Assembly: GCA_026710945.1 (NCBI GenBank)
Contig: JAPOQA010000028.1
Coordinates: 1-64,000, forward strand
Source: Chloroflexota bacterium
Lineage (GTDB): Bacteria; Chloroflexota; UBA11872; VXOZ01
DNA: 64,000 nucleotides
Direction of reading: 5' to 3'
Below, one piece after another: positions 8,071 to 19,980 of the stretch (position 1 is its first letter; the number at the start of each line of letters is the position of its first letter). A program made the translations under genes and the position numbers. The notes beneath the pieces were generated by a model. It searched no databases, was not told the DNA's origin, and saw nothing but the letters and a program-made list of their open reading frames with translations.

Positions 8071-9135
8071 CTAGGTGAGTTGCCAGGTGGTTGGGTCCAA
8101 GCCCACGTCGCGGGCGGCGGCACAGAGCTTCTCCCATGTAGTTTCGTCGATGGGGATTCCCGTCTGCTCGCGCTCGCGTTGTGCACGGTACTCCGGTTCG
8201 CTGGCAACCAAAACCTCATCGACACCGGCTGCCGGGCGGCTCGTCTTTACGTGGCTGACGAGCGTGTCAATCTCATCATAGAAGAACTCAGGTTCCACAA
8301 ACTGGGCGATGTCATAGGCCGTCATGTGCACACCGTTGCTATCCACGCGCATGTCGCCGGCGGACATACCCTGGCCGCTCAGCCCGCCGCCGCAGATTTC
8401 ATTCATCATGCTCAGCGCAGTGCCTTTGTGCCCTAGGGGACCGCCCAGCGGGAGCACAGCACCGCGCGGTTCGTCCCAATAGTCGCTGGGATCGGTGCTG
8501 GGGTTGCCTGCCGCATCCACAATCCAGCCCTCAGGCAGCGGCTTGCCCTGGTTGGCGGCCACTTTGATCTTGCCGTCAGCGACAGTAGAGGTGGTCATGT
8601 CCACAAAGAATGGCGGATCGGCGCGCCGTGGCGCCGCAAAGGCCAGCGGATTCGTCCCGAGACGGCCGTCGATGCCACCGAACGGCGCTACTTGAAAGCC
8701 CAGTCTCCCGGCATTGACAAAGATCAGGCCGATCATGCCGGCCTCTGCCACCATGTGCGGATACTCCCCGACTCTGCCGATGTGGCTCGCATTTCGCAGC
8801 GAGACACTGGCTATGCCGTACTGTTGCGCCTTCTCTATCAAGAGCTTGGTGGCAAAGACCGCGCCCACCTGACCAAACCCGTTGTTGGCGTCCACCACCG
8901 CTGTGCAGGGATGTTCGCGCACAATCTCCGGTACGGCTTGCGGGTCGACAACCTGCTGTTCCGTTACTGCGCGCCAATACTGTTCCATGCGTACGACGCC
9001 GTGAGAGTCATGGCCGTAGAGGTTGGACTGCACGAGGTGATCAGTGACTATGCGGGCATCTTCCCGGCGGCAGCCCAGAGCGGTGAAGAATTCGTAGCCA
9101 ATGCTGCGCAAAGCGTCGGCGGTAACGGTAGGCAC
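8071..9135 (-). CDS. Ldh_2-family (malate/L-lactate-type) dehydrogenase, paralogue 1
   Basis: This 354-residue NAD(P)-dependent oxidoreductase belongs to the malate/L-sulfolactate/ureidoglycolate dehydrogenase family. Family motifs are present: the catalytic-site YGHDSHGVVRM near residue 40, DANNGFGQVGA, SHIGRVGEYP, RLGTNPLAFA, the MTTSTVADGKI strand and GGPLGHKGTALSMM. The start is GTG with AAAGGAGCC about 7 nt upstream. The same leader precedes the two paralogues further right on this strand. Substrate is unknown; a 2-hydroxyacid/2-oxoacid is expected. About 790 bp of repeat sequence separates it from paralogue 2. Confidence 0.85.
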   Translation of the reverse strand: MPTVTADALRSIGYEFFTALGCRREDARIVTDHLVQSNLYGHDSHGVVRMEQYWRAVTEQQVVDPQAVPEIVREHPCTAVVDANNGFGQVGAVFATKLLIEKAQQYGIASVSLRNASHIGRVGEYPHMVAEAGMIGLIFVNAGRLGFQVAPFGGIDGRLGTNPLAFAAPRRADPPFFVDMTTSTVADGKIKVAANQGKPLPEGWIVDAAGNPSTDPSDYWDEPRGAVLPLGGPLGHKGTALSMMNEICGGGLSGQGMSAGDMRVDSNGVHMTAYDIAQFVEPEFFYDEIDTLVSHVKTSRPAAGVDEVLVASEPEYRAQREREQTGIPIDETTWEKLCAAARDVGLDPTTWQLT

Positions 9136-9284
9136 AAACGGCTCCTTTCGGCATCGCGTGAGTTTTGAAGGTTCGGTTCTTGCTCGTGAAGGTCCACGTA
9201 TTGGGTTACAGTGCAGGCTCTGTGAACTTATGTCAAATACGCCGGTTCAGGTTGGTACGGTGAAGATTCCCCTCACCCCGGCCC

Positions 9285-9412
9285 TCTCCCCAAGGAGAGG
9301 GAGTCTTCTCGCTAGCCGGCTCGGTTTGTGCAAGAGTCTCCCCAGAGAAAGGGAGTCTCCTCGCCTGACGGCTTGGGTTGTTCAAGAGTCTCCTCAGGGA
9401 GAGGAAGTTTTC
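9285..9412. repeat. Two tandem ~52-bp units of the CTCCCCAGGGAGAGG repeat family
   Basis: CAAGAGTCTCC recurs at 9331 and 9383, 52 bp apart. Each unit carries an AGGGAGTCT segment and a GGCTYGGKTTGT-like segment. This is the monomer form of the 105-bp unit at 1318-1650. Confidence 0.6.
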
Positions 9413-9513
9413 GCAAAGCCACTGTCCCAAGTTACGCATTGGACTGGAAGCCCGCCCCTGCCCTGCCCGTTATGCGGGGATCGCCGGGTGGGAACTCTCC
9501 GCAGGGCAGCGCT

Positions 9514-9841
9514 TGTATGTGTTAAGTGATTTGTTGACAGATTTGAGAACAAAAGCAACTGAACGCAGTACTCTACATGAACAGTACACATGTCATTCCG
9601 AACGGAGCGCAGCGAAGAGAGGAATCTAAAGATGTTGAGCCTATTGGGCGACACGTTGCATGGGCCCTAGATTCCTCGCTCCGCTCGGAATGACATGCAC
9701 CATCAACTCCTCAGAATGGAAAGCGGATTCTGTCAACGAATTACTCAACTCTTACAGGAATGACATGTATGCAGGCAAGCGCAGAGTCTTGCTCCCGTGA
9801 TTCTTCTATCAAATCTGTCAACGAATTACCTGACATTTACA
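9514..9841. mobile_element. Composite MITE: one full copy plus the right half of a second
   Basis: Positions 9514-9757 form a 244-bp element, the inverted homologue of the MITE at 60018-60259. Its ends (TGTATGTGTTAAGTGATTTG and, reversed, TGTAAGAGTTGAGTAATTCG) match the terminal repeats of the IS at 26570. Immediately after it, 9758-9841 resembles only the right half of another copy, from GGAATGACATG to the end AATTACCTGACATTTACA. The outer flanks are AGCGCT (9508-9513) and AGCGCT (9842-9847), so the whole behaves as one insertion that received a second copy and then lost half by recombination. It has no coding capacity. Confidence 0.75.
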
Positions 9842-9925
9842 AGCGCTGACTACTGCATCTATCCTGCCACAGTGTCGGGACTGTCACACGTGGAGTACTG
9901 CAGCAGTCCGTAATGGTCACTGTGT

Positions 9926-11008
9926 TCAGTCTGCGGCGTCACGCGAGGCGAGTTCCCAAGTGTCTGGTTCCAAGCCCAATTCCCGGGCCGCGGCGCAGAG
10001 CTTTTCCCAGGTGGTGTCGTCGATGGGGATTCCCGTCTGCCCGCGTTCGCGCTCCGTGCGGAATTCCGGTTCGCCAGGAACCAGAATCTCATCCACGCCG
10101 GGCGCGGTGCGGCTAGACTTGACGTGGCTGACCAGGGCTTCCACCTCAGCGTAGAATGCCTCCGGATCGGTGAACTGCGCGATATCGTAGGCCGTAATGA
10201 GGACGCCGTTACTGCTAAAGCGCATGTCGCCTTGGGACATGCCCTGACCGCTCATTCCTCCCCCGCAAATCTCCATCATCAAGCTGAGCGCAAAGCCTTT
10301 GTGCCCCAGGGGACCGCCCAGCGGAAGCACGGCCCCGCGCGGTTCGCCAAAATAGTCATGCGGGTTCGTGCTGGGGTTGCCCTCCGCATCGACAAACCAT
10401 CCCTCTGGCACCGGCTTGCCTTGATTGGCGGCGATGTAAATCTTGCCGTCGGCGACCGTGGATGTGCTCATGTCCACAAAAAGCGGTGTGTCGGCGCGCC
10501 GGGGCGACGCGAAAGCCAGCGGATTCGTGCCCAGGCGACCGTCGATGCCGCCAAAAGGCGCCACCTGAAAGCCCATCCGACCGGCATTGACGAAGATCAG
10601 GCCGATCATGCCGGCCTGCGCCACCATGAGTGGATACGCGCTCAACCTGCCAATGTGACTCGTATCGCGCAGTGAGACACTGGCCACGCCGTACTGCTGC
10701 GCCTTTTGTATCAAGAGGTTGGTGGCGAAGGTCGCGCCCACCTGACCGAACCCACCATTGGCATCCACCACCGCGGTGCAGGGATATTCACGCACGATGT
10801 CCGGTACTGCTCGCGGGTCAACACGTTGTTCCTCCCAGACGGCGCGCCCATACCTTTCCATGTGCACGACACCATGGGAATCATGGCCGAAGAGGTTGGA
10901 CTGCACCAGGTGATCGGTGACAATTCGGGCGTCAGCGGGGCGGCAGCCCACGGCGGCGAAGAAGTCGTAGCCAATACGGCGCAAAGCATCAGCGGTGACG
11001 GTAGGCAC
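9926..11008 (-). CDS. Ldh_2-family dehydrogenase, paralogue 2
   Basis: This 360-residue enzyme is closely similar to paralogue 1 along its whole length: FGHDSHGVVHM, DANGGFGQVGA, SHIGRLSAYP, RLGTNPLAFA, STSTVADGKIY and GGPLGHKGFALSLMMEICGGG. The predicted NAD(P)H-dependent reaction is interconversion of a 2-oxo and a 2-hydroxy acid. A GTG start preceded by GAAAGGAGCCG is conserved with its neighbours. It ends in a short extra tail (ASRDAAD). About 100 bp separates it from paralogue 3 upstream, so the two are likely co-transcribed. Confidence 0.85.
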   Translation of the reverse strand: MPTVTADALRRIGYDFFAAVGCRPADARIVTDHLVQSNLFGHDSHGVVHMERYGRAVWEEQRVDPRAVPDIVREYPCTAVVDANGGFGQVGATFATNLLIQKAQQYGVASVSLRDTSHIGRLSAYPLMVAQAGMIGLIFVNAGRMGFQVAPFGGIDGRLGTNPLAFASPRRADTPLFVDMSTSTVADGKIYIAANQGKPVPEGWFVDAEGNPSTNPHDYFGEPRGAVLPLGGPLGHKGFALSLMMEICGGGMSGQGMSQGDMRFSSNGVLITAYDIAQFTDPEAFYAEVEALVSHVKSSRTAPGVDEILVPGEPEFRTERERGQTGIPIDDTTWEKLCAAARELGLEPDTWELASRDAAD

Positions 11009-11109
11009 AGCGGCTCCTTTCGGCGTTACACCAATTGTGACTTGAGTAGGTGTTATGGTATGGCTTCGCGCCAGTTGGACGGCTTTTCGTTCCAGGCTGC
11101 GGCCTCGCG

Positions 11110-12171
11110 CTAGGCGGGTTCCCAGGCGGTTGGGTCGAGGCCGATGTCACGCGCTGAGGCGCAGACTTTCTCCCACGTGGTGTCGTCTATGGGAATGCCG
11201 TTGCGTTGGCGTTTGCGCTCGGTACGGAATTCCGGCTCACCGGGAACCAGTATTTCATCGACGCCGGGCGCAGTCCGGCTCGGCTTGACGTGTTTGACCA
11301 GAGCTTCCACCTCGTCGTAGAAGAAGTCCATGTCCGTGAAGTGCCCGATGTCGTAGGCGGTAAGCAGGAAGGCGTTCGCAGGCGCGCGCGAGTCGCCGGC
11401 AGCCATGCCTTGACCGCTGAGGCCCCCGGCGCAGAGCTCTACCATCATGCTCAGCGCATAGCCTTTGTGGCCGAGTGGACCGCCCAGCGGCAAGATTGCG
11501 CCGCGCGGTTCGTCCCAATAGTCCTGCGGATCGGTGCTCGGATTGCCATCTCCATCGATGATCCACCCTTCCGGCAGCGGCTTGCCGAGATTAGTTGCCA
11601 GGCGAATCTTGCCGTCGGCGACCGTGCTCGTTGTCATGTCCACCATGATGGGCGGGTGGGAACGGCGCGGCGCGGCAAAAGCCAATGGATTCGTCGCCAG
11701 GCGGCCGTCTATGCCGCCGAACGGCGCAACTTGGATGCCTAAACGGCCGTAATTGACGTAGGCCACGCCAATGAGGCCGGCCTGGGCAATCATGATGGGG
11801 TAGGCTCCCGCTCTGCCGATGTGGCTCGCTCTGCGCAGTGCGACACTCGCCAGGCCGTACTGCCGCGCCTTCTCTATGGCCAACTTTGTGGCAAGAGTCG
11901 CGCCCACCTGCCCAAACCCGTTGTTGGCGTCAATCACCGCCGTGCAGGCGCGTTCGCTCACGATCTCGGGCGTTCCCTGGGGTTGGACGCGCCCTTCGTC
12001 CACGGCGCGCGCATACTCATACATGCGCAAAATGCCGTGGGAGTCATGGCCGTAGAGGCTCGATTGCACCAGATGGTCGGCCACAATCTGCGCATCATCG
12101 GGACGACAGCCGAGTGCGATGAAGAATGCTTGGCCGATGCGGCGCAGGGCGTCAGCGGTAACGGTCGGCAC
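11110..12171 (-). CDS. Ldh_2-family dehydrogenase, paralogue 3
   Basis: This 353-residue protein is the most divergent of the three paralogues. It still has YGHDSHGILRM, DANNGFGQVGA, SHIGRAGAYP, RLATNPLAFA (Gly replaced by Ala), MTTSTVADGKI and GGPLGHKGYALSMM. It is the promoter-proximal gene of the minus-strand set. The leader CGAAAGGAGCCGTTCGTG matches those of the other two. The differing central loops suggest the three enzymes diverged for different 2-hydroxyacids, which is inference. The neighbourhood offers permeases but no dedicated regulator. Confidence 0.85.
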   Translation of the reverse strand: MPTVTADALRRIGQAFFIALGCRPDDAQIVADHLVQSSLYGHDSHGILRMYEYARAVDEGRVQPQGTPEIVSERACTAVIDANNGFGQVGATLATKLAIEKARQYGLASVALRRASHIGRAGAYPIMIAQAGLIGVAYVNYGRLGIQVAPFGGIDGRLATNPLAFAAPRRSHPPIMVDMTTSTVADGKIRLATNLGKPLPEGWIIDGDGNPSTDPQDYWDEPRGAILPLGGPLGHKGYALSMMVELCAGGLSGQGMAAGDSRAPANAFLLTAYDIGHFTDMDFFYDEVEALVKHVKPSRTAPGVDEILVPGEPEFRTERKRQRNGIPIDDTTWEKVCASARDIGLDPTAWEPA

Positions 12172-12488: not shown

Positions 12489-12785
12489 CTACTCGCCGGC
12501 AGGATAACCGGCAACCCGCTCCACCAGCGCGTCCACCGCGGCTTCTTCCATGATCAACTGCGGTCCGTGGGGAAAGTCGGCGTGCTTTGCAAAGCGGCCG
12601 CGCCGTTCGAGCGCGCATTCCCAGCCATCGTCGTTATGCTCGGCGCGTGTGATCTGGAGAACGTACCCGTTAGCGAAGGGCACCGTGTACCGCTCGTTGA
12701 TGCGCAGGCACCAATCATTGGGCAGTTCCTTGCGAAACACGCGCCACGACAACTCAGGTTGCCATACTCTCTGTCGCACTGCCAT
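12489..12785 (-). CDS. Small hypothetical protein (98 aa)
   Basis: This 98-residue soluble protein has no signal peptide or membrane segment and begins MAVRQRVWQPELSWRVFR. It has a mixed hydrophobic/charged composition, including a WECALERRGRF segment and an acidic C-terminal helix (EEAAVDALVERVAGY). An AGGGAGCGT stretch upstream of the ATG is a plausible ribosome binding site. I do not recognise the family. It stands alone between the Ldh_2 cluster and the TatB-like gene. Confidence 0.5.
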   Translation of the reverse strand: MAVRQRVWQPELSWRVFRKELPNDWCLRINERYTVPFANGYVLQITRAEHNDDGWECALERRGRFAKHADFPHGPQLIMEEAAVDALVERVAGYPAGE

Positions 12786-13061
12786 CGTTCACGCTCCCTT
12801 GGTTTTATACTCAAAGCACATGATACTGTGTGACAGTTTGCACGTACAGCCTCCGTCAGGCGCAGCTAGCAAACGTGTCCTGAGCACTTCGGCAGGCCTG
12901 TGCTGAGCCTGTCGAAGGGAACACACTGCCGGATTACGCACAGCTTTTGCTCCTGCACGCTGTGCGGGATAGAATAAAGCAAAGCAGCGGTGCGCGGCCT
13001 GCGCTATGCAGTGCGCGCCCTATGCAGATTCACAAGCAATCGCCGCAGAAAATGAGCAAAT

Positions 13062-14345
13062 ATGTTTGACATCGGCCTGCCGGAACTTATGATCATCCTC
13101 CTGCTGGGCCTGGTCCTCCTGGGACCGGACCGCCTGCCGGGGGTAATTCGTCAATTTTCGGGGGTTGTCCGCATGCTGCGCTCGAGCTACAGTGAAGCAC
13201 TCGCCACCTTCAAAGACCAACTCGGCGACGTGCAGGAAGACATCGACGCCATCCGTGGCGAAATATCCTCTATTCAAGGTGAAGTGCGCTCTACCGCGGA
13301 GGACGTGGAGAAAGATGTAAAGGAAGTTGAGAGTGAGGTCAAGACTGCCAGCGCTGATATAAAGCGCGATCTCGATGAAACGGCGAAGGAGGCTGCTGCG
13401 ACGCGACCGGACCAGGTCGGCGCGGAAGCCGCGGCGCCGCCGGTAGTTGCCAGCGTGGCTTCCTCGCGGCCCGCTATAAGCGAACGCGGCGCTGCCTGGA
13501 CGCCCCAGGGAACCCAGACGGGCGGCGGCTCTCCGTTGCAGCAAGACCTCTTCGCCGGTCTGATGCGCAGCCTTAAGGCGCGGCTTGGCGAAGACTGGCT
13601 GGTGGAACAGGCAGCGATCTACCGTGATCTCGGCACGCGCGCCGCCGAAAGGAACGCGGAAAAGGAACAGGACGTTGCGGCGCTAGTGCGCACGTGGGCG
13701 GACATGCACCGCAACTCGCTGCCGGAGGGCAGTTTGCAGATCATTGAGACCGGTAGAGACTATCGCGTGCGCATGCGCCAATGTCCCTTTAGCTTTACCG
13801 AAACAGATGACGTGGAACTGTGCCGGTCGTGCGGCGCGTATGACCTGGCTTATCTGGAGGAACGCACGGCTGAGGCGAAGTGGGAGTCGCACCTGACGGC
13901 AGGCGATCCCTGGTGCGAGTTGGTGTTTGCCAAACCGCCGCCACCGCCCAAGCCGGAGCCCGCTGAAGAGGCGCCGGCAGAAGAACCCACCGCCACGGTC
14001 AACGGGGATGCTGTGGTTGCTACCGAAGACTCTACGCAGACCGTCGAGCCACAGGCTGCGGCGGCGAGCGCAGTCGACCCTGTCGCTGCAGGATCGGAAT
14101 TCAGTGCTTTGGCACAGGCATTTCGCACCACTGCAGAGGATGCGGATTCGCCGGAGCCCGCTGCCACAGACGTTCCGGACGTGGCAGCGGTTGATGAGGC
14201 CAAGCTAGCGGTCCAGAACGACGATAGTGCACAGGCGTCCGCAGTGGATCCAGTGGTTGCTGAAACGTCAGCGGATGCCGATGCAGATTCCCCTACCAAG
14301 ACCGCCGGCAGAACCGACTCCGGCAAGAAAGAAGCCGCCCCATGA
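13062..14345 (+). CDS. TatB-like membrane protein with a large C-terminal Cys-containing domain
   Basis: This 427-residue protein starts as a Tat translocase component. MFDIGLPELMIILLLGLVLL is the short N-terminal helix, followed by GPDRLPG and the amphipathic helix. A coiled coil follows (residues ~45-115). Residues ~165-290 form a further domain with RQCPFSF (Cys241), LCRSCGAYD (Cys254, Cys257) and AGDPWCELVF (Cys285). That layout resembles the ATC hydrolase (L-2-amino-thiazoline-4-carboxylate hydrolase-like) family. The tail (~295-427) is Ala/Pro/Glu-rich and probably disordered. TatA/B proteins are usually 60-180 residues, so the fusion is unusual. The stop overlaps the next gene (ATGA). 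Confidence 0.75.
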   Translation: MFDIGLPELMIILLLGLVLLGPDRLPGVIRQFSGVVRMLRSSYSEALATFKDQLGDVQEDIDAIRGEISSIQGEVRSTAEDVEKDVKEVESEVKTASADIKRDLDETAKEAAATRPDQVGAEAAAPPVVASVASSRPAISERGAAWTPQGTQTGGGSPLQQDLFAGLMRSLKARLGEDWLVEQAAIYRDLGTRAAERNAEKEQDVAALVRTWADMHRNSLPEGSLQIIETGRDYRVRMRQCPFSFTETDDVELCRSCGAYDLAYLEERTAEAKWESHLTAGDPWCELVFAKPPPPPKPEPAEEAPAEEPTATVNGDAVVATEDSTQTVEPQAAAASAVDPVAAGSEFSALAQAFRTTAEDADSPEPAATDVPDVAAVDEAKLAVQNDDSAQASAVDPVVAETSADADADSPTKTAGRTDSGKKEAAP

Positions 14346-14938
14346 GGGTGGAGACTTTCGTCCGGGGTCCGCTGCTAAACAACGTCTACCTCCTCTGGGA
14401 CGAGCACAGCAACGAAGCGGCCATCATCGATCCCGGCATCCAGAGCGACGATCTGCTACAGAACATCCAGGACCTGCAACTAAACCTGCGCTATGTTCTC
14501 AACACTCATCGCCACTTCGATCACGTCGACAACGATGAATTCTACCGTGAGCAGACCGGCGCTCCCATCGTATTGCACCAAGACGACGCGGCCATGCTCA
14601 AAGACCAGCTAGGGATTGAACCGGACATGCTGCTGCAGGGCGGCGAGGAATTGGCGTTGGGCGGCCTTACCATCCGGACACTCCACACGCCCGGCCATTC
14701 CGCAGGCGGGATGTGCTTCCTGGTGGAGGACCACCTGTTTGCGGGCGATACGCTGTTTGCCGGCTCGGTAGGCAGGAGTGACTTCGAGGATAGCGACGGT
14801 GAACTGCTGCTAAAGGTCATCGCAGAGAAGATCCTGCCGCTGCCGGACGCGACCCGCGTTCTCCCCGGTCACGGCGATGAGACTACCGTCGGCGCAGAAC
14901 GCGCCGGCAATCCCTTCCTACAGGGGTTTGTGGGGTAG
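14342..14938 (+). CDS. MBL-fold hydrolase, glyoxalase II-like
   Basis: This 198-residue metallo-beta-lactamase-fold hydrolase has the complete metal motif THRHFDH near residue 60. Further metal ligands are HTPGHSAGG, FAGDTLFAGSVGR and LPGHGDETT. The short form without the C-terminal glutathione-binding domain is typical of thioester hydrolases or persulfide dioxygenase relatives. Translation is coupled to the TatB-like gene by a 4-nt ATGA overlap, implying a joint role that cannot be specified. Confidence 0.85.
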   Translation: MRVETFVRGPLLNNVYLLWDEHSNEAAIIDPGIQSDDLLQNIQDLQLNLRYVLNTHRHFDHVDNDEFYREQTGAPIVLHQDDAAMLKDQLGIEPDMLLQGGEELALGGLTIRTLHTPGHSAGGMCFLVEDHLFAGDTLFAGSVGRSDFEDSDGELLLKVIAEKILPLPDATRVLPGHGDETTVGAERAGNPFLQGFVG

Positions 14939-15530: not shown

Positions 15531-16334
15531 ATGAACAATGAGCAGACGCACGAACACGACCATGACCACGAGCATCATCAGGGGCGCTCGATTATCTCCC
15601 GGCAGCCGCATCGACCGCCGCCGTGCGAGGCGGATGACAATGAGGCGGAAGCAGCGGCACGCCAGCAAGATGAGGCACACGCCCAAACGGGTGAGGGTGG
15701 CCATGCCGAAGCACACGGCCATGCCGGAGAAGGCGTGGTCCACGCCCACGACGAGCGCCAGCATGGGGCTAAAGCAGAAGAGCACGCCCATGACGCCCAC
15801 GCACACGGCGCGGCCGCTGCAACGTCGTCCCCCGATGAGCATCGCCAGGCCGGCGCGCAGCAGTTTCCCACCATAGAGTGCGCGGTGATCACGGTCAGCG
15901 ACACGCGCACGGAGCTCGACGACAAGTCCGGCGCGATCATCCAGTCTATGCTGCAGGAGGCCGGCCACGAGATCGTCGGTTACCGGTTGGTCAAGAATAA
16001 TGCCCAGCAGATTACGCAGGCGCTCACCCACATGCTGGCAAGCCGGGCGCGCTTCGTGATGCTCACCGGCGGCACAGGTCCGGGCACGCGGGATATCACG
16101 GTCGAGACCGTGCAATCCCTGCTGGAGAAAGAGCTAACGGGCTTCGGCGAGCTCTTCCGCATCTTGAGTTACGAGGAAATCGGCGCCGCGACCATTCTCA
16201 GCCGTGCCACTGCCGGCCGCATCGGCAACAAATTTGTCGTCTGCTGCCCCGGATCCTCGGGCGCCGTGCGTCTGGCGCTGAACGAGATACTCATTCCCGA
16301 ACTGGCGCACATTCTCCGCGAAATGAACCGGTGA
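15531..16334 (+). CDS. MoaB/MogA molybdopterin adenylyltransferase-like protein with His-rich N-terminus
   Basis: This 267-residue protein has residues ~113-267 as a full MoaB/MogA domain, which binds molybdopterin during molybdenum cofactor synthesis. Motifs are ITVSDTRTELDDKSG, MLTGGTGPGTRDITVET, GFGELFRILSYEEIG, LSRATAGRIGNK and CCPGSSGAVRLAL. Residues 1-112 are a low-complexity extension with about 19 histidines (for example THEHDHDHEHH and HAHDAHAH) plus acidic residues, a probable metal-binding tail. GGAGG about 9 nt before the ATG supports this start, so the extension is translated. The next gene begins 9 bp after the stop. Confidence 0.85.
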   Translation: MNNEQTHEHDHDHEHHQGRSIISRQPHRPPPCEADDNEAEAAARQQDEAHAQTGEGGHAEAHGHAGEGVVHAHDERQHGAKAEEHAHDAHAHGAAAATSSPDEHRQAGAQQFPTIECAVITVSDTRTELDDKSGAIIQSMLQEAGHEIVGYRLVKNNAQQITQALTHMLASRARFVMLTGGTGPGTRDITVETVQSLLEKELTGFGELFRILSYEEIGAATILSRATAGRIGNKFVVCCPGSSGAVRLALNEILIPELAHILREMNR

Positions 16335-16343
16335 GGCAACCAA

Positions 16344-17168
16344 ATGCGCATACTCTTCCTCGGTACAGGAGCTGCTGAAGGCTATCCGGCGCTTTTTTGC
16401 GAATGCGCGCATTGTACTGCGGCGCGGGCGCGCGGCGGACGTAACCTGCGGCGGCGCTCGGCGCTCATGGTGAATGACGACCTCCTGATAGATATCGGCC
16501 CCGACTTTGTAGCCGGCATGCATGCGACCGGCGCGAATTTCGGCCGCGTCGCTACCCTGCTCATCACCCATGCCCACGGCGACCACTTTCATCTGCCCAA
16601 TCTCTACATGCGTCGGAGCAACTTCTGCGCTACGACACCCGCGCAGTTGGAAGTCTTTGGCACTCCTCCCACGACGGAAGCGACGAAAGCTGAGGCCTCA
16701 GCGCGCAATCTCTCCGAAGAGGAGTTTCGTCTGCGGCTCAACACCATCCAACCCGGTGATTCCTGGCAGACCGGGCGCTACCGGGTCACCGCGTTCCCAG
16801 CGGCACACGCAGAGGAACTCATACCGGTGTTCTTTGCCATCGAAGAGGGTGACCGGACGCTACTCTACGCATCTGACACCGGCCCTTTCCCCGACGAAAC
16901 CTGGCGGCAACTCCAAGCATTCCGTTTCGACTGCGCAGTCATCGAATCGACAATGGGCATCGGCCCGCCGGGCACGCACCATCTCTCTATGGAGCAGTGC
17001 GCCGAACACCATCAAAGGCTGGAAGATGAGGGCTTGCTGCGTCCCGGGGCACGCCGTTTCGCCACGCACTTCTCCCATAACCGGACGCCACCCTATCTGG
17101 AATGCGTGGAGTTCTTTGCGCCGCACGGCATCGAGCCCGCGTACGATGGCTTGGTCGTGCAGGTGTAG
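16344..17168 (+). CDS. MBL-fold metallohydrolase, PhnP-like
   Basis: This 274-residue protein opens RILFLGTGAAEGYPALFCEC, with CxCAHCTAARARGGRNLRRRS resembling the zinc-binding and substrate loop of PhnP-type cyclic phosphodiesterases. The core metal motif is THAHGDHFHL. The remaining ligands are in FPAAHAEE, YASDTGPF and FATHFSHN. It lies 9 bp after the MoaB/MogA gene, so they are co-transcribed. It may act in phosphate-ester or cofactor processing. Exact substrate is unknown. Confidence 0.8.
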   Translation: MRILFLGTGAAEGYPALFCECAHCTAARARGGRNLRRRSALMVNDDLLIDIGPDFVAGMHATGANFGRVATLLITHAHGDHFHLPNLYMRRSNFCATTPAQLEVFGTPPTTEATKAEASARNLSEEEFRLRLNTIQPGDSWQTGRYRVTAFPAAHAEELIPVFFAIEEGDRTLLYASDTGPFPDETWRQLQAFRFDCAVIESTMGIGPPGTHHLSMEQCAEHHQRLEDEGLLRPGARRFATHFSHNRTPPYLECVEFFAPHGIEPAYDGLVVQV

Positions 17169-18122: not shown

Positions 18123-18609
18123 TTATGTAGTCTCCGAACCGCGCATCAATTCACCTTTGTCCCATACCCGCCGTTGGGATCCCGTCCAACAGCCGTGTTG
18201 TAAGGAGGATAGTAGTAGTGGGGTTCAGCGTCAATCCTAGCCAATGTCGTCCGAGGTCGCTTCCGACAACTTGGCATATTGGAGGCTTGCTTCCGCAACC
18301 GCGATGCGTGCGCTATTGAATGTCGCTATGAATTCAAGAGTTTCTATCGGTAAGACGTATTGGCGACAGTGTACATAATTCCTTTTGAATGGAGCGGCAA
18401 TGCTGACAATTGTGCACACGCTCTAAATTCCATCCCCGTGTCAAGCACGAGGTCTCGGCGCATCCGGGATTCCTTGATAGATAGCTTGGACCGCACTCTC
18501 CTCAACCAGTCTTTAGTAGTCCGGTGACAGGGGCGAGTTTCTCTACGCAAGGACAGCGTTTAGAATAATGGAAGAGCGAGGTTACGGAGCCACTGTAAAT
18601 TGGAGAGCG
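18123..18609. other. AT-richer intergenic region, nothing recognised
   Basis: No convincing gene, RNA or repeat is visible in this stretch. Short open frames lack ribosome binding sites and family resemblance. Confidence 0.4.
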
Positions 18610-19980
18610 ATGAGCATTTCGCGACGGAAACTTCTAAGTGCACTAAGCTCGCTGCCGGCGCTGCCGCTGCTGGCGGCATGTGGCAACAGTCTGCCGGATT
18701 CCATCCGACCCGGCGGCGAGGCCAACGTGCCGACGGTACACGTGGTCGCGCCGAACATTACCCTCATCTCTGCCACCAACCTCATCCGCGCCATCCAGGC
18801 CTGGAACGGCGGCGAAATTGATCCTGCCGGCCCTGGTGAGCGATTTCGCATCTCTTTGCAGATAGTTAAGGCACGCGAAGACGGCGGCGTCACGGCCAGC
18901 GGCAGCCCGCCGACGTGGACGTATTTTCGCCGCGGCATTGACGCCGAGGCCGCTGCCGGACGTCCGGCGGACGTTGCCATGCTCACCGGCGGCATCTTCA
19001 CACTGCCCGGCATTGCCAGCCCGTTCTTTGCGCCGCTCAACGACTTTATACAGCGCGACCCGGGCTTTCTCAACGAGTTTGTGACCCCAGCCGTGGACGC
19101 CACGACGTTCGGAGGGCGCATCCAAGCGGTGCCAACGGTGTTGGGCGCCGGCGTGATGGCCTGGAGGCCGGACCGGTTTGACGATACCGACCTGCCGCCA
19201 CCTCCCGCGAAATGGACCTGGAATGACCTCGCAGCGCTGGGACAAGATTTCATGACCGCGGCGCGTGCGCGCAACAAGGACGACTGGTGGGCCATCGGCG
19301 AGGGTCTTCACTCGGCACTGTGGGCGCACCTCATGGCCCAGTCCGGCGGGGGCGTGCTGAACATGGAGGAGGGTCGGCTGAGCCTCAATTCCGATAAGAC
19401 TCGTGCGGCGCTCCAGTGGTGGCGGGATCTAGCCTACACGCACCGCATCATGCCGACGGGCGCCGACATGTCCTTCTTTGACATGACGCGCTTGGCGCCG
19501 CGCAAGCGGGCAGCATTCCATCACGCCATGGTCTATTCCGGCGAAAATATCGGCGGCGGCTGGAAAGTGCAGCACTCGCCGTCCTTTGCCGGCAACGCTA
19601 ACAGCTCGCTCTACGTGATGGACGTCATGGGCATTCACGGCAAGTCGGTGCAAACCGAGTTGGCCTACCAGGCCATCAAGGCGCTCGCGCCCTATGTGTC
19701 GTTGCGCTCGATGGTGCCGGCTTGGATTCCCGCCCTCAAACACGTTGAAAACCCCTCCGGCGAACGGCCGGAGCTCGCGTTGGTCGAAGATCGCGTGCCG
19801 GTGGTCTTGGAGGCGCTGCGCAATGGGCTGGGTACGACGACGTTGCCCTGGACGGAGGTAGGCACGCTGCTCACCAGAAACCTCATCGAGCCGCTCTACA
19901 CCGATGAACTCGACGTCGCCGCCGCTACCGAACGCGCCACCCGCGCTGTCGCCAACGCCTTGCCGGGGGTGCTAGTGTAG
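18610..19980 (+). CDS. Extracellular solute-binding lipoprotein (ABC-type), orphan
   Basis: This 456-residue secreted lipoprotein starts MSISRRKLLSALSSL with a twin-arginine SRRKLL motif and has the lipobox LPLLAAC with Cys at ~22. The mature part has the periplasmic-binding fold of family 1 (sugar-type) solute-binding proteins: PADVAMLTGG, PTVLGAGVMAWRPDRF, WTWNDLAALG and LALVEDRVPVVLEALRNG. A longer frame opens 42 nt upstream, but the signal peptide sets this ATG. No permease or ATPase genes lie nearby. Ligand is unknown. Confidence 0.8.
   Translation: MSISRRKLLSALSSLPALPLLAACGNSLPDSIRPGGEANVPTVHVVAPNITLISATNLIRAIQAWNGGEIDPAGPGERFRISLQIVKAREDGGVTASGSPPTWTYFRRGIDAEAAAGRPADVAMLTGGIFTLPGIASPFFAPLNDFIQRDPGFLNEFVTPAVDATTFGGRIQAVPTVLGAGVMAWRPDRFDDTDLPPPPAKWTWNDLAALGQDFMTAARARNKDDWWAIGEGLHSALWAHLMAQSGGGVLNMEEGRLSLNSDKTRAALQWWRDLAYTHRIMPTGADMSFFDMTRLAPRKRAAFHHAMVYSGENIGGGWKVQHSPSFAGNANSSLYVMDVMGIHGKSVQTELAYQAIKALAPYVSLRSMVPAWIPALKHVENPSGERPELALVEDRVPVVLEALRNGLGTTTLPWTEVGTLLTRNLIEPLYTDELDVAAATERATRAVANALPGVLV

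Follow-up and report, generated by a model that had tools for sequence, protein, structure and literature searches.

A TatB variant with a conserved C-terminal cysteine domain of apparent V4R/TRAPP kinship in three families of a Chloroflexota class

Within the Tat translocase, TatB is the receptor partner of TatC, and everything that follows its membrane helix lies in the cytoplasm. A GP hinge typifies TatB, just as FG typifies TatA, and the classic cargo of the pathway consists of iron-sulfur (Fe-S) and molybdenum enzymes. For the E. coli protein, excerpts of PMC9436932 report that the membrane-extrinsic part of TatB does folding quality control, that TatB is proposed as the Tat proofreader, and that its C-terminus is predicted to be a random coil.

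Sensory domains with three cysteines have been described elsewhere, in the regulators SufR and ArnR, where the domain sits behind a winged helix DNA-binding domain. The SufR of M. tuberculosis (Rv1460) binds an Fe-S cluster and needs C203, C216 and C244 (spacers x12 and x27) for function, according to excerpts of PMC6034842, and in the excerpted text of PMC12343034 ArnR binds a [4Fe-4S] cluster, carries Cys179, 193 and 223 (x13 and x29), and has a sensory domain resembling TRAPPC3. A zinc ion held through four cysteines is reported for Thorarchaeal TRAPPC3, similarly to PoxR (PMC10933270, in part). Kinship between V4R and Bet3 has also been published (PMC2253512, in part), and an earlier paper connects MetOD1, HNOB, V4R and ATC hydrolase through their secondary structure and a three-cysteine cluster (PMC5847659, in part).

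The window, i.e., the whole stretch of 64,000 nucleotides of Chloroflexota DNA analysed here, contains a forward-strand ORF at 13062–14345 that encodes 427 residues, in agreement with the coordinates and length of the preliminary description; its parts are collected in Table 1. The motifs MFDIGLPELM, GPDRLPG, C241-P, C254-x2-C257 and G-D-P-W-C285 named in that description all occur in the protein, and the tail put at about 130 residues measures 135 (aa 293–427). Of the motif given as C254-x2-C257-x2-D, the cysteine pair stands and the aspartate spacing does not, since D261 makes the latter C257-x3-D.

Table 1. Parts of the fused tatB gene, the codons of its conserved residues and the overlapping downstream gene, in window coordinates.
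Feature	Residues	Coordinates	Strand	Remarks
TatB N-terminus	1–48	13062..13205	+	Transmembrane helix, GP hinge (LLGPDRLPG), amphipathic helix
Hydrophilic/coiled-coil helices	49–115	13206..13406	+	dN/dS 0.049
Pro/Ala-rich linker	116–156	13407..13529	+	Variable
C-terminal cysteine domain	157–292	13530..13937	+	Assigned to the ATC_hydrolase/SufR-C/MetOD1/V4R-TRAPP superfamily
C241 codon	241	13782..13784	+	C-P motif; Cys in 27/29 complete sequences
C254 codon	254	13821..13823	+	Cys in 27/29 complete sequences
C257 codon	257	13830..13832	+	Cys in the window's genus only (6/6), mostly Ser elsewhere
D261 codon	261	13842..13844	+	Invariant (29/29); possible fourth ligand or structural residue
C285 codon	285	13914..13916	+	Cys in 27/29 complete sequences
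Low-complexity tail	293–427	13938..14342	+	Poorly conserved (mean identity 0.47, dN/dS 0.30)
MBL-fold hydrolase (GloB-like)		14342..14938	+	ATGA overlap with tatB

That the protein begins as a genuine Tat component is borne out by several lines of evidence. It scores 55.4 bits against TIGR01410 (TatB), 1.1 under the cut-off of 56.5; all 14 sequences of alignment A2 match TIGR01410; and the transmembrane helix, GP hinge and amphipathic helix at the N-terminus, followed by hydrophilic helices, are those of a TatB such as that of E. coli. Matches to PF02416 were borderline (19.2 bits against a cut-off of 21 in the Pfam scan, 21.8 in the genome search). The host assembly is 98.4% complete, and separate tatA and tatC genes, which the preliminary description had asked about, are both present, one each: the only other TatA/B gene lies on a different contig and encodes an FG-type TatA of 89 residues, and the single TatC is encoded on a third contig, leaving the fused gene unlinked to either. 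Across the three fusion-bearing families (f1, f3 and f4; 30 genomes), PF02416 detected exactly two genes, a short TatA and the fused TatB, in 28 genomes and the fused gene alone in the other two (G005 and G038, 69% and 76% complete); TatC was found in 29 of the 30. Judged by sequence and gene content, the fusion protein is the TatB of its host genome, the sole candidate beside one TatA and one TatC, as expected for the TatB of a TatABC system. Where the E. coli protein is predicted to end in random coil, however, this one has a conserved cysteine domain of 136 residues and a tail.

The question of whether the same fusion occurs elsewhere can be answered for its class, for which the data set comprised 41 genomes. 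The fusion was present in every genome of families f1 (6), f3 (19) and f4 (5), i.e., in 30/30, with one copy (G037) ending inside the domain at a contig end. A profile of the domain (A1) recovered it in all 28 genomes of these families drawn among 301 Chloroflexota genomes, those of G005 and G040 being read separately, and found no fusion in the 264 searched genomes of other Chloroflexota classes (0/264). A weak A1 match in another genome of the class (G022) proved to be a separate SufR-like HTH regulator rather than a TatB, and another weak match (G017:C60, E 0.0086) was discarded because a longer ORF runs across it on the opposite strand.

The TatBs of the sister families lack the domain, both in f5 (2/2; loci L246 and L247) and in f2 (six full sequences, L164–L169, of nine genomes); a further TatB candidate, L248 of G026, was not fitted by the pattern of the script and was left out of the comparison. 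The one f5 protein scanned ends in a small helical domain of the UPF0175 type (31.6 bits against a Pfam cut-off of 27.9), and two scanned f2 TatBs gave weak matches to the same family. Across the class, domains of a regulatory type seem to accumulate on TatB tails.

Averaged over the 15 pairs that six species of the window's genus provide, dN/dS was lowest in the coiled part (0.049), somewhat higher in the transmembrane part (0.084) and the domain (0.094), and highest in the linker (0.29) and the tail (0.303). The cysteine domain is preserved in much the same way as the translocase part of the protein, unlike the tail. Since the domain is present in 30/30 genomes and under purifying selection in these six species, it is not a chance feature. 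The same figures bear on whether the protein is still a translocase component at all. The Tat part is small, the remainder of the protein is large, and tatA and tatC lie on other contigs, all of which would suit a protein that has lost its translocase role and uses a TatB-like helix just to anchor a soluble domain to the membrane; this is very unlikely, however, considering that the transmembrane and helical part is under strong purifying selection and that no other TatB candidate accompanies the TatA and TatC of these genomes. What emerges is a TatB variant that three families of the class have in common and that, judging by literature searches, is unreported: these searches returned no report of a TatB with such a C-terminal fusion or extension, an iron-sulfur sensor or UPF0175, and no paper that places a domain of the ATC_hydrolase, MetOD1, V4R or H-NOX type on a protein translocase.

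The preliminary description had likened the domain to ATC hydrolase (L-2-amino-thiazoline-4-carboxylate hydrolase). Kinship with that family is upheld by profile comparison. At the Pfam gathering score PF14196 (ATC_hydrolase) did not match the window's own domain, and a search of its genome gave no PF14196 match either. Of 14 A1 members, three matched PF14196 weakly (best E 0.0026) and three matched PF18546 (MetOD1; best E 0.0084). Members of PF14196 were gathered from 251 Chloroflexota genomes, 16 of which had a match, and 17 proteins were kept, without L039 and L052 (wrong ORF picked) or L048 (internal stop in frame, under the cut-off). Against these, A1 aligned with an hhalign probability of 95.9 (E 5.5e-9) over 109 columns, the first and last cysteine motifs being in register and the middle one nearby. 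The comparison with the C-termini of SufR-like proteins (without L198 and L199, unlisted for extraction, and L204, which did not fit the pattern) gave a probability of 84.4 (E 7.1e-6), and that with MetOD1 members (without L213, L214 and L215, because of a wrong ORF or no fit) was weak, at 35.0 (E 4e-4). Ten column-shuffled versions of A1 and one reversed version, used as controls, reached at most 3.0, and a small PF14196 protein, L047, bridges the profile sets (1.4e-6). TIGR02702 (SufR) was not among the 22 families found, and the protein encoded at 13062–14345 has a TatB N-terminus where SufR has its HTH. When the domain profile was searched against the sequences of solved structures, nothing meaningful came back (best E 0.94, unrelated proteins).

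Predicted structure, which the preliminary description had proposed as a check, points in the same direction. Because the window's own domain was modelled poorly (pLDDT 62, with weaker matches to TRAPP, H-NOX and BcsD), the fold assignment rests on an AlphaFold2 model of an f3 representative built from 10 sequences, the best of five (pLDDT 80.8, pTM 0.77; 51–56 for the other four). Its best match was TRAPPC3/Bet3 (7b6d_A; Z 9.2, rmsd 3.8, 133 aligned), followed by the V4R domains of the phenol sensors MopR (5kbg_B; Z 8.2, rmsd 4.2, 140 aligned) and PoxR (5fru_A; Z 8.0, rmsd 4.1, 139 aligned) and Thorarchaeal TRAPPC3 (7yh3_D; Z 8.1, rmsd 4.5, 132 aligned, with 7yh2 likewise among the matches); the V4R protein MJ1460 and H-NOX ranked lower. 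A fold search of BFVD gave no match at E 0.001 or better. From the model of this relative we infer a V4R/TRAPP/H-NOX fold. The likeness to TRAPPC3/Bet3 is one of predicted fold, at about 10% sequence identity and with no Rab or vesicle context around the TatB domain. Taken with the profile and fold matches to ATC_hydrolase (PF14196, whose Pfam cut-off the window's domain misses), MetOD1 (PF18546), V4R (PF02830) and H-NOX/HNOB (PF07700), the predicted fold places the domain in the superfamily that joins ATC_hydrolase, the SufR C-terminus, MetOD1 and V4R/TRAPP/H-NOX.

Much of the functional argument turns on the cysteines. Of the 30 aligned TatBs, 29 reach the positions in question; 27 of these carry the full set of C241, C254 and C285, and P242 is invariant in all 29. 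The two exceptions, G011 and G033, have kept the domain and lost all three cysteines, both showing Asp, Ala and Thr there, and they group as sisters (support 91) in a tree computed without the three cysteine columns, so that a single joint loss suffices. Such an all-or-none pattern is as predicted for one shared ligand site, and the survival of the domain in G011 and G033 implies that the putative centre is dispensable for the persistence of the domain.

The spacing C-x12-C-x30-C occurs in all 27 cysteine-bearing TatBs. All 23 selected SufR-like regulators of the phylum have x12 and x27–28, a count that is not independent, as 22 of the 23 had been picked beforehand with a loose cysteine pattern, and in those PF14196 members that fit the cysteine pattern (9/17, using patterns that forbid extra cysteines) the first spacer is mostly longer (17–19). 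Like SufR and ArnR, whose form is C-x12/13-C-x27..29-C (x27..30 once the TatB domain is included), the domain has three cysteines, often with a C-P start in the SufR-like members; the first spacer (x12) agrees and the second (x30) is longer than the 27 and 29 of the two regulators. Its predicted fold is TRAPPC3-like, as is that of ArnR, and it differs from both regulators in its place behind the membrane part of a TatB rather than behind a DNA-binding domain. In spacing, the domain resembles the Fe-S regulators more closely than the collected PF14196 members. SufR-like regulators were themselves found in 7/7 drawn f3 and f4 genomes and in 0/2 drawn f1 genomes (G000 and G003).

On balance, it is more likely than not that the domain binds a metal or a cluster. 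What kind of centre this might be is where a more modest reading enters, in which the cysteines hold structural zinc and the domain senses nothing, serving the Tat receptor as a module for dimerisation or docking. The zinc sites of Thorarchaeal TRAPPC3 and PoxR (PMC10933270), both of which are among the fold matches, speak for it, and a replaceable structural role would fit the joint loss of three cysteines in two relatives that retain the domain. The closeness of the cysteine spacing to that of SufR and ArnR speaks against it, as does the presence in most relatives of three cysteines rather than four, C257 being confined to the genus, and a purely structural zinc appears rather unlikely.

The gene neighbourhood offers another angle. 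The coupling to an MBL-fold hydrolase is real, with a four-base ATGA overlap at 14342, and was found within the genus only. In the two further species of the genus whose loci were examined in detail, tatB is followed by the MBL gene, a MoaB-like gene and another MBL gene; the tested f3 and f4 loci showed no such neighbours next to the fusion, and a functional cluster of the three with tatB, with molybdenum as the link to Tat cargo, was dropped on that ground. The confinement of the neighbours to the genus implies that the domain belongs to TatB rather than to an operon function, and the MBL-fold hydrolase is probably not part of the TatB system.

The preliminary description offered two readings, one of which was a membrane-anchored thiol or metal enzyme. 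Such an enzyme could be a thiol or ring-opening hydrolase related to ATC hydrolase, held at the membrane and partnered with the coupled MBL hydrolase. The ATGA overlap and the profile similarity to PF14196 speak for it. Against it, PF14196 matches neither the window's domain in Pfam nor anything in its genome, the related domains of tested function are sensors, the MBL adjacency was found in the genus only, the cysteine spacing is closer to that of Fe-S regulators than to that of the collected PF14196 members, and two members lack the three cysteines altogether. It is very unlikely, and the other reading, in which a Tat component carries a sensing domain, fits better.

Other features of the window are recorded for completeness. 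Upstream of tatB, on the reverse strand, are three tandem malate/L-lactate dehydrogenase-like (Ldh_2) genes (8071–12171), two of them confirmed by Pfam; two further species of the genus also have tandem copies. A 98-residue ORF (12489–12785, reverse strand) has no Pfam match, but counterparts in two further species of the genus are 88–91% identical to it, and it is probably a genuine small gene. At 15531–17168 (forward) a MoCF_biosynth (MoaB-like) gene, whose N-terminal stretch is rich in His, is followed by the second MBL-fold gene, an order conserved in the genus. The solute-binding protein (SBP_bac_1) encoded at 18568–19980 (forward) has an SRRKLL twin-arginine motif and a LAAC lipobox near its N-terminus and is a probable Tat-exported lipoprotein. 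Finally, CTTCGACAGGCTCAG occurs in six copies with at most one mismatch (0.01 expected), at 12903, 15097, 15257, 33911, 59773 and 63065, and looks like a dispersed repeat.

The explanation that best accommodates the evidence overall, and one we consider somewhat better than even, is a TatB with a cytoplasmic sensory domain that binds a metal or an Fe-S cluster. The V4R/TRAPP-fold domain would extend TatB on the cytoplasmic side, at the substrate receptor, and would probably be dimeric. C241, C254 and C285 would most likely hold a metal centre, either [4Fe-4S] as in SufR and ArnR or zinc as in PoxR and Thorarchaeal TRAPPC3, with D261 or, in the window's genus, C257 as the candidate fourth ligand. 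The state of this centre (cluster present, oxidised, nitrosylated or lost) might then alter the interaction of TatB with folded substrates and thereby modulate or gate Tat export; alternatively, the domain might dock Fe-S cargo, or zinc might merely stabilise TatB oligomers. That the domain affects export in any of these ways is a possibility to be entertained with some doubt.

If it does, then TatB might couple the export of folded, cofactor-bearing proteins to redox, NO or Fe-S supply, and the tail of TatB might serve in this class as a slot for signalling modules, V4R/SufR-like in three families and UPF0175-type in at least one other; this wider view is tentative. How Tat recognises mature versus immature cargo is an open question, and a natural TatB with a sensor-type cysteine domain would provide a direct handle on the cargo discrimination of export and on its response to redox and iron. 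The finding would also bring a bacterial machine for protein export into the range of the V4R/TRAPP superfamily, otherwise known from regulators and from vesicle tethers of eukaryotes, and the presence of a sensor-like domain on TatB hints that the redox or cofactor state of the cell could adjust export.
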